Shown here: one piece after another, positions 20,850 to 50,791 of the stretch | Layout of the letters: each line of letters begins with the position of its first letter | How positions within the stretch are numbered: the first letter of the stretch is position 1 | From: Pelagicoccus sp. SDUM812005 | Lineage (GTDB): Bacteria; Verrucomicrobiota; Verrucomicrobiia; Opitutales; Opitutaceae | Reading direction: 5' to 3' | Length of the DNA stretch: 64,000 nt | Assembly (NCBI RefSeq): GCF_031127875.1 | Contig: NZ_JARXIA010000017.1 | Coordinates: 1 to 64,000, forward strand | The notes under the pieces: generated by a model | What the model was told of the DNA's origin: nothing | The model's input: only the letters and a program-made list of their open reading frames with translations | The model's database searches: none | Position numbers and translations under genes: made by a program

Positions 20850-21896
20850 CTATCCCCTCCCCGAATGAAAAGGGCACTTCCCCGCCGCAATGGAGGCTCC
20901 GGCCACAGCCTGCTCCCAGGCCGCTTTCTGGTACTTGAACGCCGGCTCCGGACGGCTTGGGTCGTAGCCCCGGTGATACAAGTCCATCGTAGAACCGGCC
21001 ATCGGCGGAACCAACCAAGACCAATCGCCCGGCACCGACCTGCCGAGGGATTCCTCCTTCTGCACAAAACTCGAAAACTGCTGGGCCGCCGTATGGTGGT
21101 CCACCATAGCCACACCTGCCTCCTTGAACGAGTACATCACTGCCGCGCAGAGCTCCACCAAAGCCCGATCCCGCCAAAACGACGTCCTATCCCGAGTCGA
21201 AAGCCCCAGCCCTTCCGCAATCGCAGGAAGCATGTTGTAGCGCTCCCTGTCCCCGAAATTCCTCACGGCAATCTCCGTTACCATGTAGTGGCCACTGAAG
21301 GGCGCCGCAGAAAACTTCCAGTCGTCGAATACCAACGCCATGTCCGCGATCGCCGGCAAGGCATGCCAACGCAACCCCAACTTCTCGAACCATTCGTACT
21401 TCGGATGACGTATTCGCACCTCAAATACACTTTTCCGGGGGATCTCGAACAACTTAACCCCAAGCGAGGGAACCTCGATCGCCAGCGGCAAAATATCGAA
21501 GGCGCTGGGCTGGGACGGAGGCGTCCACCCCAAGTCCCTCAGTCGACGCGTCAGCTCGAGCTGAGCCGGATCGCCCAGAACCTCCCCGTCACCGAGCGGG
21601 TAGCCCGCGTACCGCACCAATTGGCTGTTCCAGATGCGAATCCCTCGCTGCCCCCGCGGTACAGGATCAAAGACGGTAATGGTGGAGCGAATTCGCCCCT
21701 CGTTGGTGGAGTAGTGCAAATGCCGCAAGCAGGCTTCGAAAATCTCGTCGTGCCCGCATGCTCCTCGAGCGTCCAGTAGCTCCAGCCCCTCCCACATCGC
21801 CCTACCGATGCACCGTGCGCTATTGCGCCACGCCTCGCGGGCCTTTTGTCTAATCTCTACCGCCTCCAGGGCTGCTTGGCTACTCATGTCTCGCAT
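20850..21896 (-). CDS. nos: Bacterial nitric oxide synthase oxygenase
   Basis: The 348-residue protein is an oxygenase-only NOS. AWRNSARCIGR (22-32) contains the haem-ligand C29. FDILPLAIE, FEIPRKSVFEVRIRHPKYEW, FSAAPFSGHYMVTEIAVRNF with substrate-binding E208, and HHTAAQQFSSFVQKEESLGR plus GDWSWLVPP are family blocks in the correct order. It would make NO from arginine using an outside reductase. Two normally aromatic family positions are His here: H178 (WHALPA for WYALPA) and H203 (GHYM for GWYM), and the usual GG before the substrate site is DD (191-192). The C-terminus ends GKCPFHSGRG, a CP-type box. A second ATG four codons in is an alternative start. No reductase or pterin gene is nearby. 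Confidence 0.9.
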   Translation of the reverse strand: MRDMSSQAALEAVEIRQKAREAWRNSARCIGRAMWEGLELLDARGACGHDEIFEACLRHLHYSTNEGRIRSTITVFDPVPRGQRGIRIWNSQLVRYAGYPLGDGEVLGDPAQLELTRRLRDLGWTPPSQPSAFDILPLAIEVPSLGVKLFEIPRKSVFEVRIRHPKYEWFEKLGLRWHALPAIADMALVFDDWKFSAAPFSGHYMVTEIAVRNFGDRERYNMLPAIAEGLGLSTRDRTSFWRDRALVELCAAVMYSFKEAGVAMVDHHTAAQQFSSFVQKEESLGRSVPGDWSWLVPPMAGSTMDLYHRGYDPSRPEPAFKYQKAAWEQAVAGASIAAGKCPFHSGRG

Positions 21897-24749: not shown

Positions 24750-27700
24750 TTACAACAACTCAACTTCGAGCCTCATGAAGCGGCGCTCCGCATCAAGCAC
24801 CGTTTCCGAGTCCGTAACCGATTCTTCCACCATCGGTGATTCGGTTTGCGGATACGCATTATCCTCGCTACTCCATATCGGAGAGAGCAAGGGCAAGTCG
24901 CTACCCGCCAGCACACGGTATACGATATCTGTGGCTGCCTTAACTCGATTGAAGCTCATATGAAGTCGCCCGTCCGCGTAGTTTTCGGTAAATGGTGGCT
25001 GGCTAGACAGGGTTGGATAGGATCCGGTGGCGTACTCCATCAGGTTCACGATCCCGTCCGCATCGGGGTCGGCGCTATCGCTTGCCTCGCCTATGGCTTC
25101 GAAGGTTCCGAAATACGCCATACGCCAATTGCGGATAGGCTGATCGCTCACCATTAACACCGGCTCGAACTCTATAAGGTCTAGCAATACCCAATAGTTG
25201 CTGGCCGCGACATTCTTACCAACCACAGTTATTCGGACGTACTTGGTCCCCGAGCTGTCAAAATGAACAGCCAAGGGATCAATGTTTTCGTAGACACCTG
25301 AAGAACTGTAGAGGTCAATCTCATCGCCCACATCTGTAAACGGCCCCTCTGGATTCTCTGCGATCGCGAGTTGGACGATCCCACGGCTTCCCCACTTCTT
25401 GGTACGCATGGAAAGCTGATAATCTCCCGCTGCAAGGGATGGAACAGCAAAACTCGCGTATTGCCCCACAGCTGTAGACTGCATATGCAAACCACCGCCA
25501 CCACTCGCCGGACCATCGGTGAACTGAATTACCGACGTATTCGTATCCTGGACACTTAGGCTTTCTGCCTCGAATAAACTAGAGTCGAAATCTACGACTA
25601 GACGGTCCAGAACTACGCCGGCGTCAACCATCCAAATCTGGATCGTCTGCAGACCCGCCTGAGCAATCTCATGCTTGGAGATTCCATAAGACGCAGCCCG
25701 TAACGTATTGGCATTCCAAGCCGCAGAATATTCAGCCGCATTCACATCGGTGACCTGCACTGGTCCGCCGTTCAGCGAAATGGCATAACGCAACCCCGCG
25801 TGATCCGCTGTGATACGATGCGTCGGCAAGCACTCCGTTCGGATTTCTACCTGCCCTGTACTGAACGCAAAGAATTCGTAAGTAAGCGAAGCAGCATCTG
25901 CCGGAAGGTTCTCTGGATCAAGGCTCGCTGCTGTCACAGGTAGAATAGTCATGCCGTCGCGCGAAGCGGTCGCACCGTCTACCCGCGTCCACGCAATACC
26001 GTCTGAGTCGTCCCGGCGAGCTGTATAATCTTCTGCCTCGATGACAACCTTCGCATCCGCTTCGACTGCCGCCGGCAAGGTCCCGAGGTCAAGGCCCTGC
26101 GGATAGAAGGCACGAACATTCACCGTACGCGTTTCTCCAGCCCCTGCTATCGTAATTTGGCCCGGTATCGCGTAACCGCGCGGTGCCTGGGTCCAATCGA
26201 CGCCTACCATGATTCTTGCATCCGCGTCTCCGGATGTTTGGCTGAGCTTAATCCATGGAGCGCTGGCTGTTGCTGTCCAAGCGAACGATCCTGCCCCTTT
26301 ATTATAGACGTCGACGAAACGCTCTACATCGGCATGACGCGCGATCTTAGGAAGCTCACCCGCAATCCCCTCTTCAAGTGGCGATTCCTCCCCCTCGATA
26401 GCCACGCCAAGCCCGGCTTCCGCGGCTGGCGTATAGCTGCCGGTGCTGGGCATGATAAACGCGTTTTGCGTCTCCTGCGCCCAACCTGGAAGCTGAGAAA
26501 TATCCATGGGGTTCAACATGTAATCCCACTTTCCATCAGCATTGGTTTTGTTATAGAATTCCGTTTCAGCAAGCAAGGCAGCGTGCGCGGCCTCAGCAGC
26601 GGCAGCGAGCTCAGCGGTGCCAGCTCGCCCTTGGCTCGCCCAGAGTCGACTTCGCTCCGCGAGAAGCACGCGACGGTTCACAAAGTTAGACCCTTTCACC
26701 GGATACAGAACCATAGCGTAGAAAGCCGCCTTATCCTCAGCTGGCAACTGGCTATAGATTTCCTCAGCTGCCTCGGCAAGAGCGGAGAAGTCCTCCAAGC
26801 GCCGCCCCGCCTCGTCGCCATTCTCCGTATGGCTAAAGCCACTATCATTGCGGTTGAGATGTTCGGGACGCTTGACGATGTTGAGATGATAGTAATCTTC
26901 CAGCACGTCTGCAATCGCATCCGCATGAGTAGAGCCAAAGACACGCGCCGCCCATTGGCTTAGGTAAGCGCGCTGGTCGAATTCACGGAAGGCCTCCGGG
27001 TTGCGCGCCATACGCAAGAAGAAGTCCGTCCCTATTTCGTGAGGCTTAAGGTCTCCCACGTTGACCAACCACATGTTCTTCGCCTCGAAGTCCCATGCCT
27101 TGATCATCTCGGATCGTGTCATGCCTGGCGGAGTCGTGCAGAGCCAAAGATAACTCGTCGGTACTCCCCAATAAGAAAGGTGATAGTAGACCCCGGAACC
27201 ACCGGATCGGGCCTGCTCTTGGGTAGTCGAAAGCTGACGAATGTACCCATGGTTGTCGTCGGGCCAGAGAATCGTTACATCGTCTGGGAGCTCCAAGCCG
27301 GATTGGTATTGCACCAGCGTTTCCTTGTACGGTATGAATATCTGCGGCATTTCCGCAGCGTTCTTGTTTACGTAATCGCTTATCATCTGACGCTGGTCCG
27401 GAATGATCTCGTCTTGGATCTTCTGAGCCTTTTGCGCATCGGTCGTGCCAGCTGGAGCGAGCATGCCTGCGTCCGTGCGCCCACGCATCCCTATGGTATA
27501 GATTGCTTCAGTATCCGCAGTCTCAATGACCCGCTCTTCCCAGAAGTCATAGATATTCGATCGGTTGCTCCAGTAGTTGTAGCTACCTCGCTCGCTTTCA
27601 TTGTACTCGTGACTGTTTCGCAACATCGGCTCGTGGTGCGAGGTACTGATCACAATCGCGTAGTCGTCCGCAGCTTCCATGTTACCGGGGACCTCATAGA

Positions 27701-29747
27701 ATGGAGTCGTCATGACCGGGTACTCGTGCATCGCCGGCCAAATGACATTGGAATGCAAACGCAACAGTAGCTCGTAAATGGTGGAATAGGTTTTCGGACC
27801 TATGTTTCCGACTTCCGGCTCAAAAGTGTTGGCCGCCCAAGGCTGAAGCCCCCAATCCTCGTCGTTAAGGAAGATACCTCTGTATTTGACTCCTGGAGAC
27901 GGCTGCGTGTGGCTACCCGCGATATAAAGGGCTGACTTTTGAGCAGTGGGAACGTCGCCCCAGAAATACCACGGCGACACTCCCATCGACTCGGAAAGCG
28001 CGAACACGCCAAAAGCGGTACCGCGGCGATCGCTGCCTGCGATAACGAGAGCTCGACTCACTCCCTGTAGTGGATTTTCTACGACGGCAGCAGTATACGC
28101 CTCCCATTTTCCTTGGATTGCAGATACGTCGATCTTTCCATCGCTCACCAGAGAGTCGATCAGCGGACTCGATCCGACAGTTCCCAGCAAAATAACCTCA
28201 GATGCAGAGGGAGCTGCAGTGGACACGGCTGCGGCGATCCCTGTAACACGCTCGATATCATCCGCGAGCGCTTCAGCCGCGATGCCCACCACCGCAGCAT
28301 CTGTGTCGCTGTAGTGGATCGTAGCGGCCTGCCCGTTGCCGGCTATCATAAGGGATCCGGCGCTTACAGTTTCCGAAACGCCCATAAAAGGAATCGTGAA
28401 ATATTCTCCCCCGGGAATAGCAGGAGGGGTCGCTCCATCGTACGCTACCCAGGGATTCGCTGAACGGTAAGCCGATTCCGCGTCTTCAAGCGGCCCCAAG
28501 TCGTCCGCCCTGACGATCCAACCAACAAAAGAGTCGAAGTGTACATTCGTCGCCGAGCCACCTGAGCGACTCGTCGAAATACTGATGCGGACAGATTCCG
28601 TAGCGGCTGGCAGAAGAGCTTTTAGTTCAACAAATGTCCAGGGTGCAGAGCTTGGGTCATAAGCGGTTCCGTTATTGGCGACATTTACAAGCTCACCCGT
28701 TGAATCTGATCCGATCAACTCCAGAGCCGCATCCAAAAACTCAATACTTATGCTGCTGGCATCATTCTGATCCGTATCCTGATAGTAAAACGAAAGGTTG
28801 ATTGCAGCCTCACCCGCTTGAATCAGGCCAAGGATCCGCGGATTCACCGCTACAGTCTGAGAAAGGGTCGAATCACTTGGCTGAGAACCAGCGCCACCCG
28901 CGAGACGATTCGCCGTCAGGTACAGCGATCCTCCCTGCGGTTCGCTCGGATCCTGCGGAAAGGATCCGCCATCAAGCCCATCTTGTAGCCAGAATCCAGC
29001 GCTGCCACCGTCGTCGGACCAACCTGCGATCGGTGACTTGCTGGAAGTACCATCGTCACCCGTTTCGAAATCGCCGTTGACGATCGGCAAATAGCCAGAG
29101 GCCGTGACCACTTCGCCGCTGAACGAATCAAAATGCACGTTGGTCGCAGATCCCCCAACTCGATTCGTAGATATGACAATTCGAATCGAATGCGTACCAA
29201 CTGGCAGATTCTCCTCGATCAACACCTCAGTCCAAGGAGCTGTGGTAGAGTTGTAGGAAGTGCCGTTAGAAGCCACATTCCCAAGCCCACCACTCGAAGC
29301 CGTTCCTAGGGATTCGGAGGTCGCGTCGAGGAATTCGACATCTACCACTGCTGAATCATTGTCGTCAGTATCGTGGTAGTAAAAGCTCAGGCTAAGAGCG
29401 GCTTTTCCCTCGGCAACCAGCGGCAAATCCGCCGAGTCGATGGCAACCACTTGAGAAAGGCTAGAGCTGCTTGGCTGGGAGCCAGCTCCACCGGCCAGAC
29501 GATTGCCCGATAGATAAAGTTCTCCAGCTTGAGGCTCGTTCGGATCCTGCGGAAAGGATCCACCTCCCGAACCGTCTTGAAGCCAAAACCCAGAGCTGGC
29601 ACCTCCATCGGTCCAACCGGAGATCGGCGCTTTACTTGAAGTACCATCGGACCCTATCTCAAATCCTCCATTAACAATAGGTAGCGGGGCTGCATGCGCG
29701 AATGGCACAAGTAATGCCGGTAGAATAAGGGTCGACAATCGTTTCAT
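24750..29747 (-). CDS. GH115-family alpha-glucuronidase, multidomain, secreted
   Basis: A 1,665-residue secreted enzyme. After the signal peptide (1-19) come two tandem ~190-residue repeats (22-213 and 220-411), perhaps carbohydrate-binding. GH115 spans about 445-1100: KYRGIFLNDEDWGLQPW, LLRLHSNVIWPAMHEYP, STSHHEPMLRN, ILWPDDNHGYIRQLS and HLSYWGVPTSYLWL are the family's conserved blocks. A GH115 C-terminal domain follows (IEAEDYTARRDDSDGIAWTR), then a beta-sandwich (DGPASGGGGLHMQSTAVGQY), then DSADPDADGIVNLMEYATGS, a tail frequent in secreted Verrucomicrobiota proteins. GH115 enzymes remove (4-O-methyl)glucuronic acid from xylan. The usual length is near 900-1000 residues; this one is extended at both ends. 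Confidence 0.9.
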   Translation of the reverse strand: MKRLSTLILPALLVPFAHAAPLPIVNGGFEIGSDGTSSKAPISGWTDGGASSGFWLQDGSGGGSFPQDPNEPQAGELYLSGNRLAGGAGSQPSSSSLSQVVAIDSADLPLVAEGKAALSLSFYYHDTDDNDSAVVDVEFLDATSESLGTASSGGLGNVASNGTSYNSTTAPWTEVLIEENLPVGTHSIRIVISTNRVGGSATNVHFDSFSGEVVTASGYLPIVNGDFETGDDGTSSKSPIAGWSDDGGSAGFWLQDGLDGGSFPQDPSEPQGGSLYLTANRLAGGAGSQPSDSTLSQTVAVNPRILGLIQAGEAAINLSFYYQDTDQNDASSISIEFLDAALELIGSDSTGELVNVANNGTAYDPSSAPWTFVELKALLPAATESVRISISTSRSGGSATNVHFDSFVGWIVRADDLGPLEDAESAYRSANPWVAYDGATPPAIPGGEYFTIPFMGVSETVSAGSLMIAGNGQAATIHYSDTDAAVVGIAAEALADDIERVTGIAAAVSTAAPSASEVILLGTVGSSPLIDSLVSDGKIDVSAIQGKWEAYTAAVVENPLQGVSRALVIAGSDRRGTAFGVFALSESMGVSPWYFWGDVPTAQKSALYIAGSHTQPSPGVKYRGIFLNDEDWGLQPWAANTFEPEVGNIGPKTYSTIYELLLRLHSNVIWPAMHEYPVMTTPFYEVPGNMEAADDYAIVISTSHHEPMLRNSHEYNESERGSYNYWSNRSNIYDFWEERVIETADTEAIYTIGMRGRTDAGMLAPAGTTDAQKAQKIQDEIIPDQRQMISDYVNKNAAEMPQIFIPYKETLVQYQSGLELPDDVTILWPDDNHGYIRQLSTTQEQARSGGSGVYYHLSYWGVPTSYLWLCTTPPGMTRSEMIKAWDFEAKNMWLVNVGDLKPHEIGTDFFLRMARNPEAFREFDQRAYLSQWAARVFGSTHADAIADVLEDYYHLNIVKRPEHLNRNDSGFSHTENGDEAGRRLEDFSALAEAAEEIYSQLPAEDKAAFYAMVLYPVKGSNFVNRRVLLAERSRLWASQGRAGTAELAAAAEAAHAALLAETEFYNKTNADGKWDYMLNPMDISQLPGWAQETQNAFIMPSTGSYTPAAEAGLGVAIEGEESPLEEGIAGELPKIARHADVERFVDVYNKGAGSFAWTATASAPWIKLSQTSGDADARIMVGVDWTQAPRGYAIPGQITIAGAGETRTVNVRAFYPQGLDLGTLPAAVEADAKVVIEAEDYTARRDDSDGIAWTRVDGATASRDGMTILPVTAASLDPENLPADAASLTYEFFAFSTGQVEIRTECLPTHRITADHAGLRYAISLNGGPVQVTDVNAAEYSAAWNANTLRAASYGISKHEIAQAGLQTIQIWMVDAGVVLDRLVVDFDSSLFEAESLSVQDTNTSVIQFTDGPASGGGGLHMQSTAVGQYASFAVPSLAAGDYQLSMRTKKWGSRGIVQLAIAENPEGPFTDVGDEIDLYSSSGVYENIDPLAVHFDSSGTKYVRITVVGKNVAASNYWVLLDLIEFEPVLMVSDQPIRNWRMAYFGTFEAIGEASDSADPDADGIVNLMEYATGSYPTLSSQPPFTENYADGRLHMSFNRVKAATDIVYRVLAGSDLPLLSPIWSSEDNAYPQTESPMVEESVTDSETVLDAERRFMRLEVELL
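28515..29684 (-). repeat. Two tandem ~580-bp coding repeats in the GH115 gene
   Basis: The two N-terminal domains are offset by 198 codons and share long near-identical stretches: PIVNG(G/D)FE, GTSSK(A/S)PI, GFWLQDG, GSFPQDP, NRLAGGAGSQP and GGSATNVHFDSF. At DNA level GGATCCTGCGGAAAGGATCC appears in both (28950-28969 and 29543-29562). This is a recent tandem domain duplication. Confidence 0.85.

Positions 29748-47928: not shown

Positions 47929-50791
<2,863 letters not shown>

Follow-up and report, generated by a model that had tools for sequence, protein, structure and literature searches.

Does a nitric oxide synthase (NOS) oxygenase that departs from its family near the substrate pocket make nitric oxide as its relatives do, or has its chemistry changed? 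This question is raised by a gene in the window, the whole 64,000-nucleotide stretch of Pelagicoccus sp. SDUM812005 DNA that we analysed. A sequence-only reading had described a divergent stand-alone NOS in a carbohydrate-gene setting, with His in place of Tyr in WYALPA, His in place of Trp in GWYM and DD in place of GG, and had proposed that the substrate or product may differ. The three residue changes are as it stated; what it overlooked were the short N-terminus, a Val directly after GHYM and a C-terminal CPFH tag. The features of the gene are as follows, with correspondences to mouse iNOS taken from the alignment.

20850..21896, minus strand: stand-alone NOS oxygenase, 348 aa, with an ATG start at 21896 and free of internal stops
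21810..21812, minus strand: proximal haem ligand Cys29 (RCIGR), aligned to mouse iNOS C194
21363..21365, minus strand: His178 in WHALPA, equivalent to mouse iNOS Tyr341
21321..21326, minus strand: Asp191-Asp192 replacing GG, in a variable loop
21288..21290, minus strand: His203 in GHYM, equivalent to mouse iNOS Trp366
21273..21275, minus strand: Glu208, the substrate Glu, equivalent to mouse iNOS Glu371
20865..20876, minus strand: C-terminal tag CPFH, residues 341-344, within a tail (331-348) of pLDDT below 50

The description of this protein as a divergent stand-alone NOS is upheld by its profile match, its fold and its catalytic residues. It matches PF02898 at 428.9 bits (2.6e-128; cut-off 22.7) over profile positions 47-362 of 362, and a search with this profile identified it as the sole NOS match across the 6,649,496-base genome; the genome contigs queried with the window protein alone yielded no relative, and NCBIfam models gave zero matches to it. 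In a PDB search, the G. stearothermophilus NOS scored 326 bits and was, together with NOS of mammals, the best solved match. Of the best 80 of 587 loci, 47 were used. The structure modelling that had been proposed gave an AlphaFold2 model (47 relatives) with a pLDDT of 90.0 and a pTM of 0.87, which Foldseek aligned to B. subtilis NOS (2an2, 360 residues) over 317 columns with a TMq of 0.87 and 44% identity; the protein thus has the NOS fold.

Our first alignment contained the window protein, 106 other NOS and two references, with 12 of 39 loci (near duplicates, fragments and one with a stop) omitted, and the roles of pocket residues mapped onto mouse iNOS are those of general knowledge. The main NOS blocks are present as claimed, including the haem Cys, the proximal Trp, the substrate Glu and the pterin Trp, and the mouse-numbered pocket residues W188, C194, Q257, R260, P344, Y367, E371, R375, R382, W455 and W457 are unchanged. 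Mouse D376 is replaced by Asn, likewise in nearly all bacterial rows shown. Where 85% or more of the remaining 108 rows agree on a residue, the window NOS departs from it at six positions, one of which is the pterin-side mouse F470, a Tyr here and in five other rows. The likeness to the B. subtilis and G. stearothermophilus NOS extends to the fold, the haem Cys, the substrate Glu, Ile 346 and Asn 376 (mouse numbering), the pterin-side Trp and the lack of a reductase domain, but the window NOS is about 40 residues shorter N-terminally and has His341, His366 and the C-terminal CPFH. The predicted reaction, at a Cys-ligated haem and with a reduced pterin, turns L-arginine into citrulline and NO, N-hydroxyarginine being the intermediate.

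How unusual are the three positions? A wider alignment took in all 234 loci with a NOS frame (200 unique rows); the Streptomyces sample comprises 29 loci read out of 33 genomes matched, and the sample from the family of Luteolibacter marinus, which we take to be Akkermansiaceae, comprises 71 NOS, with two of 73 matches left out as fragments. His occupies mouse position 341 in 19 of the 29 Streptomyces NOS, in those of Deinococcus taeanensis, Rhodococcus opacus and Nostoc (all three read, of 14 plasmid records), and further in Ktedonobacter, Amycolatopsis and others. We know of no assayed NOS without Trp366. This residue is retained in all 29 Streptomyces NOS, is Phe in one Halobacillus NOS and is replaced in 49 of the 71 Luteolibacter-family NOS, with His341 and His366 occurring together in 13 of the 71. 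Over the 200 unique rows, the pairs at 341/366 include Tyr/Trp (98), His/Trp (40), His/Tyr (23), His/His (15) and His/Phe (11), and the dual His in 15 rows weakens the statement that no enzyme with both changes was known. At the GG/DD site, kin have DG, NG, HG, ER, GD or GG, with DD solely in the window NOS and its same-genus homologue L005. Within the window's clade, position 366 toggles between Tyr, Phe and His among close relatives (L005 has Tyr) while the other pocket residues stay.

Excerpts of docking work place Tyr341, Tyr367 and Asp376 together (PMC8158245) and count Trp366 among the pocket residues (PMC3472740). That the His178/His203 pocket handles a different substrate or yields a different product is nonetheless unlikely: although the two positions are jointly unlike those of the solved enzymes aligned and the Streptomyces NOS hold Trp366 without exception, His341 is frequent in other NOS, 366 swaps among close relatives as a tolerated site would, the GG/DD loop varies, and the remaining tabulated substrate-side residues are kept, save the usual bacterial Asn376. 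The idea would have fallen had these residues been common in active, well-studied bacterial NOS; this is the case for His341, loosely and at the genus level only, and not for the rest. As judged from the alignments, the three odd residues lend little support to new chemistry, and a subfamily that tolerates substitutions accounts for most of what had looked like it.

A phylogeny with attention to these positions, also proposed earlier, identifies that subfamily. In a quick tree of 93 rows, the window NOS belongs to a verrucomicrobial clade of 44 rows (SH-aLRT 96), all of which have Tyr, Phe or His instead of Trp366. The clade consists of 41 of the 71 Luteolibacter-family sample rows, L054, the window NOS and L005; the last two pair at SH-aLRT 100, and a 40-row core is found at 84. 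The other eight of the 49 Trp366-less sample rows lie in a second verrucomicrobial group, and the Trp366 change therefore arose at least twice. NOS occurs in 27 of 150 genomes of the window's own family, where, among rows with a readable stretch, only the window NOS and L005 are without Trp366. We considered whether the window NOS is nested within the Luteolibacter-family clade, which would indicate transfer; forcing the 38 core sample rows into one clade cost 2.93 lnL (AU p 0.465), and nesting is not proven.

The clade is also marked by a shortened N-terminus. Its early branches L054, L165, L173 and L185 retain the segment before AWRN (PF02898 profile positions 1-46), which is helical in solved NOS and absent from the window NOS; in the remaining 40 rows, the window NOS included, N-terminal profiles detected no such segment at E 1e-3. 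When tried on 41 held-out normal NOS, the N-terminal profile failed to pick up 9, and this non-detection is therefore weak by itself. A hard limit is given by the open frame upstream of the haem Cys, which is 38 aa long in the window NOS (28 from the ATG); most other bacterial NOS have roughly 60-80 residues between the first Met and this Cys, and less than 50 aa of frame precedes it in 12 of the 38 core rows. We take the loss of the segment as a subfamily trait, since NOS commonly have it but are not defined by it. By its clade, its non-Trp residue at 366 and the absent segment, the window NOS is a member of a verrucomicrobial short, Trp366-less subfamily, which would have lost the N-terminal segment and would tolerate Tyr, Phe or His at the Trp366 site. 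The loss could weaken dimer formation or pterin binding.

Is the window protein then a decaying or inactive remnant with a NOS fold? The shortened N-terminus, a branch longer than that of L005 (0.29-0.32 vs 0.05-0.13; some relaxation is thus possible) and the presence of NOS in one of six other same-genus genomes among those listed would fit such a reading, but we judge it quite unlikely, as the frame has no stop, the catalytic residues are kept and 38 Luteolibacter-family sample rows have retained the same shortened form. In addition, dN against L005 is low (0.21) and dS is beyond computation (returned as -1), which we read as saturation, a pattern as under purifying selection.

A working enzyme needs electrons, and we examined the neighbourhood of the gene for their source. 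Mechanical ORF calling lists 89 frames of 150 aa or longer in the window, and 18 ORFs, including those nearest the NOS, were scanned with Pfam; among these 18 there is no reductase or pterin gene, in agreement with the earlier claim that none is close by. The carbohydrate-gene setting is likewise borne out, the neighbours being carbohydrate genes, permeases and unassigned ORFs: Pfam matches among the 18 include heparinase II/III-like, GH115, ArsP permease, SASA esterase, PhyH and others, and 8 of the 18 ORFs are without a match. As a separate observation, the GH115 protein (1665 aa, window 24750-29747, minus strand), with the heparinase II/III-like and SASA esterase genes nearby, points to polysaccharide degradation unrelated to NOS. 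A NOS gene with no toxin gene beside it has been noted in an Opitutae genome (PMC5673642), and the same is true of the window NOS; in the part of that paper on verrucomicrobial NOS available as an excerpt, the gene is named and no residue, subfamily or tail analysis is given.

A dedicated NOS partner operon was set aside. Across 32 loci compared, no family except NOS occurs in more than four loci, none of the families present in three or more loci contains a window gene other than the NOS, and none of the window neighbours recurs beside NOS in the relatives examined. The same-genus locus L120 has in common with the window only the NOS and one gene of 28% identity 24 kb away. ORFs of about 885 and 279 aa recur among the close clade members L045, L049 and L052, the 279-aa ORF also in L050. 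In the second verrucomicrobial group (L095, L100 and L111), conserved ORFs lie 5' of the NOS, one of about 980 aa in all three and one of about 440 aa that is cut in L095.

Elsewhere in the same genome, contig C29 encodes a flavodoxin+FAD+NAD protein and contig C35 a flavodoxin+FAD protein adjoining a sulphite-reductase-type gene; an H-NOX sensor was absent from the genome at E 0.001. Unspecific reductases serve other bacterial NOS, and by analogy the C29 or C35 flavoprotein could serve this one; its electrons would most likely come from such non-dedicated flavoproteins encoded elsewhere in the genome. Sorangium-type NOS are fusions with a NOS oxygenase domain, whereas the window NOS has no fused reductase. 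Fusions do occur in the window's own family, where two NOS (L004 and L006) have their NOS domain preceded by BFD-type [2Fe-2S] and FAD-binding domains and show the C-termini AGCPFH and EKCPFH, respectively; long frames are also found at the own-family NOS loci L007, L026 and L027. Overall, we consider it probable that the window gene encodes a working stand-alone NOS of the verrucomicrobial short, Trp366-tolerant subfamily, with non-dedicated electron donors and a C-terminal CPFH tag.

This tag is the unexpected part of the locus, and it matters more than the NOS residues. The window NOS has the C-terminus AAGKCPFHSGRG, its last residues being GKCPFHSGRG, and L005 ends in ASGCPFHS; the Cys-Pro of the window NOS lies in a flexible segment (the tail of pLDDT below 50 at 331-348). 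To count such tags we used two patterns, kept separate: a broad CP[FVHYLIM] and a narrow CP[FVHY][HSAG]. NOS tails were taken from unannotated frames, and N-tails may contain untranslated bases. The broad pattern is present in the N-tail of 61 and the C-tail of 28 of the 200 unique NOS frames, beginning 4-11 residues before the end in 26 of the 28 C-terminal cases. Pro follows Cys at 33 of 41 C-tail and 76 of 167 N-tail cysteines in these rows and precedes it at 1 and 3; the commonest residue after Cys-Pro is Phe, then His or Ser. Short as Cys-Pro is, and drawn as the tails are from unannotated frames, chance or simple composition is scarcely credible against these placements and against 500 shuffles of the tails, which gave means of 3.5 (N) and 1.2 (C) and maxima of 10 and 4. 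A terminal match to the narrow pattern occurs in 20 of 78 NOS vs 2 of 841 other ORFs (Fisher 6.5e-21, with rows that are not independent). The 841 controls are non-NOS ORFs of 150 aa or longer in the surroundings of NOS genes, with a match counted within the first 45 or the last 30 residues. Pattern density would give about 1.0 control match, and one of the two observed is the window's KatG.

The tag is neither universal nor fixed in place. Not every NOS can depend on it, since 112 of the 200 unique NOS rows have no terminal CP[FVHYLIM] at either end; tags at both ends occur in a single row of the 200. Any Cys-Pro in the N-tail is found in 20 of 23 other own-family NOS, in 23 of the 29 sample rows having Trp366 or the N-terminal segment and 7 of the 42 remaining sample rows, in 7 of 29 Streptomyces, and in 3 of 54 Bacilli and other rows. 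For the C-tail, the corresponding counts are 3 of 23, 0 of 29, 1 of 42, 7 of 29 (different Streptomyces from the N-tailed ones) and 16 of 54, the last including Paenibacillus and Algoriphagus, plus Nostoc and Deinococcus. On a FastTree phylogeny that retained 193 of the 200 rows, the tag state changes at least 26 times, and it is therefore not one inherited accident. Mutual exclusion of the N- and C-terminal tags is not claimed, the contrast among phylogenetically independent pairs being small.

Within the window's clade, an N-terminal CP is still present in two of the four early branches. The 38 short core sample rows have a C-terminal tag in none and an N-terminal tag in two, and all 38 have an internal CPVFH (S[AST]CPVFHR, through a Thr to Cys change) at the pterin-side SGS-TPVFH block. 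The window NOS and L005 show the reverse, with Met-Asp in this pterin-side block and the tag at the C-terminus instead. In this clade, loss of the N-terminal segment may have removed the tag too, and the tag would then have reappeared C-terminally in the lineage of the window NOS and as the internal CPVFH in the Luteolibacter-family core.

The same tag is carried by a second haem enzyme in the window:

48557..50791, plus strand: KatG catalase/peroxidase, 744 aa (TIGR00198, 1221 bits)
48575..48586, plus strand: N-terminal CPFH tag of this KatG, read from the sequence

A genome-wide scan for CPFH codons found 24 sites vs 18 for the reversed pattern; as judged by eye in the unannotated genome, the motif lies in frame near the end of an evident protein only in the window NOS and the window KatG, with one short frame (L254) ambiguous. 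KatG tags were read from tails, with three further loci left out as C-terminal fragments, and all 27 verrucomicrobial KatG loci read are tagged (20 of 20, the window's own included, plus 4 and 3). A stricter automatic rule scores 22 of the 27 because it misses the WWP block in five loci whose tags are readable. E. coli K-12 KatG has the N-terminal tail GKCPFHQGG, in which GKCPFH is identical to the window NOS tail; its fold differs from that of NOS, and in the KatG loci read the tag is N-terminal where present. Among plasmid-borne KatG of other groups, the tag is present in five of eight fetched of 60 rows listed, and is absent as read from those of Sphingobium, Natrinema and Cupriavidus. A third tagged haem enzyme of the same genome is a large catalase (L327, C29:157132-158286) with the N-terminus MSERKEPARCPFAGK. 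More broadly, the tag was found in 2 of 25 catalases and 3 of 12 P450 read, where some matches may lie upstream of the true start, and is thus not universal on haem enzymes; two catalase and 15 P450 loci were skipped for want of the family pattern.

What might such a tag do? Mitochondrial haem lyases have a similarly short Cys-Pro motif, and Steiner et al. in 1996, as cited in PMC8351635, reportedly described haem binding to their Cys-Pro-Val, but these enzymes attach haem and do not keep it. A Cys-Pro haem-regulatory motif is described in excerpts on Irr and IRP2 (PMC11442138, PMC10377097), and one form of this classic motif has an aromatic residue and His behind the Cys-Pro, as in the GCPWHD of Bradyrhizobium Irr (PMC11442138). 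The window tag shares with Irr the Cys-Pro, the aromatic residue and the His, and it lies on a flexible segment. According to these excerpts, the CP of the motif binds haem transiently and transfer to a nearby His occurs in peptides; in a CP...H peptide, haem is taken at Cys and then passed to His, and the authors refer to an older tally in which CP was more frequent in haem proteins (PMC10377097). The window tag differs from the motifs of Irr and IRP2 in its place at the extreme end of haem enzymes rather than in a sensor, and would be a putative haem motif. Among the listings and excerpts consulted from the open-licence PMC literature, none described a tag of this kind on the NOS or KatG of bacteria.

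In view of these motifs, a Cys-Pro tag that is mobile, terminal and borne by haem enzymes suggests a part in recruiting or recognising haem, and by analogy we infer a role like that of a haem-regulatory motif for the NOS and KatG tags. Tentatively, we propose that CP[F/V/Y/H][H/S/A/G] is a portable tag of haem enzymes in bacteria, placed at either terminus of NOS, N-terminally in KatG and also on some catalases, and that it may have been lost with the N-terminal segment and regained elsewhere in the window clade. The tag would bring haem to the apoprotein or serve as the feature by which a haem-handling partner recognises it.

The main rival to a haem motif is that CPFH is a zinc- or disulphide-linking dimer element, with Cys and His from two subunits replacing the animal Zn(Cys)4. 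This is conceivable but doubtful. The tag does have a Cys and often a His, and NOS is dimeric, the bacterial enzymes being without the hook and zinc site according to an excerpt (PMC9500659); however, the conserved part of the tag is CP, and the tag is also found on the verrucomicrobial KatG and on the large catalase of the same genome, which have haem in common with NOS and not the NOS dimer.

These results widen the known range of the NOS family, in that a whole clade can dispense with both Trp366 and the N-terminal segment, and its enzymes are thus natural tests of what the two do. As for the putative haem motif, haem delivery to bacterial cytosolic haem enzymes is, to our knowledge, largely an open matter; if the proposed role is true, a motif that moves between the ends of NOS and recurs on an unrelated haem enzyme would be a direct handle on it.
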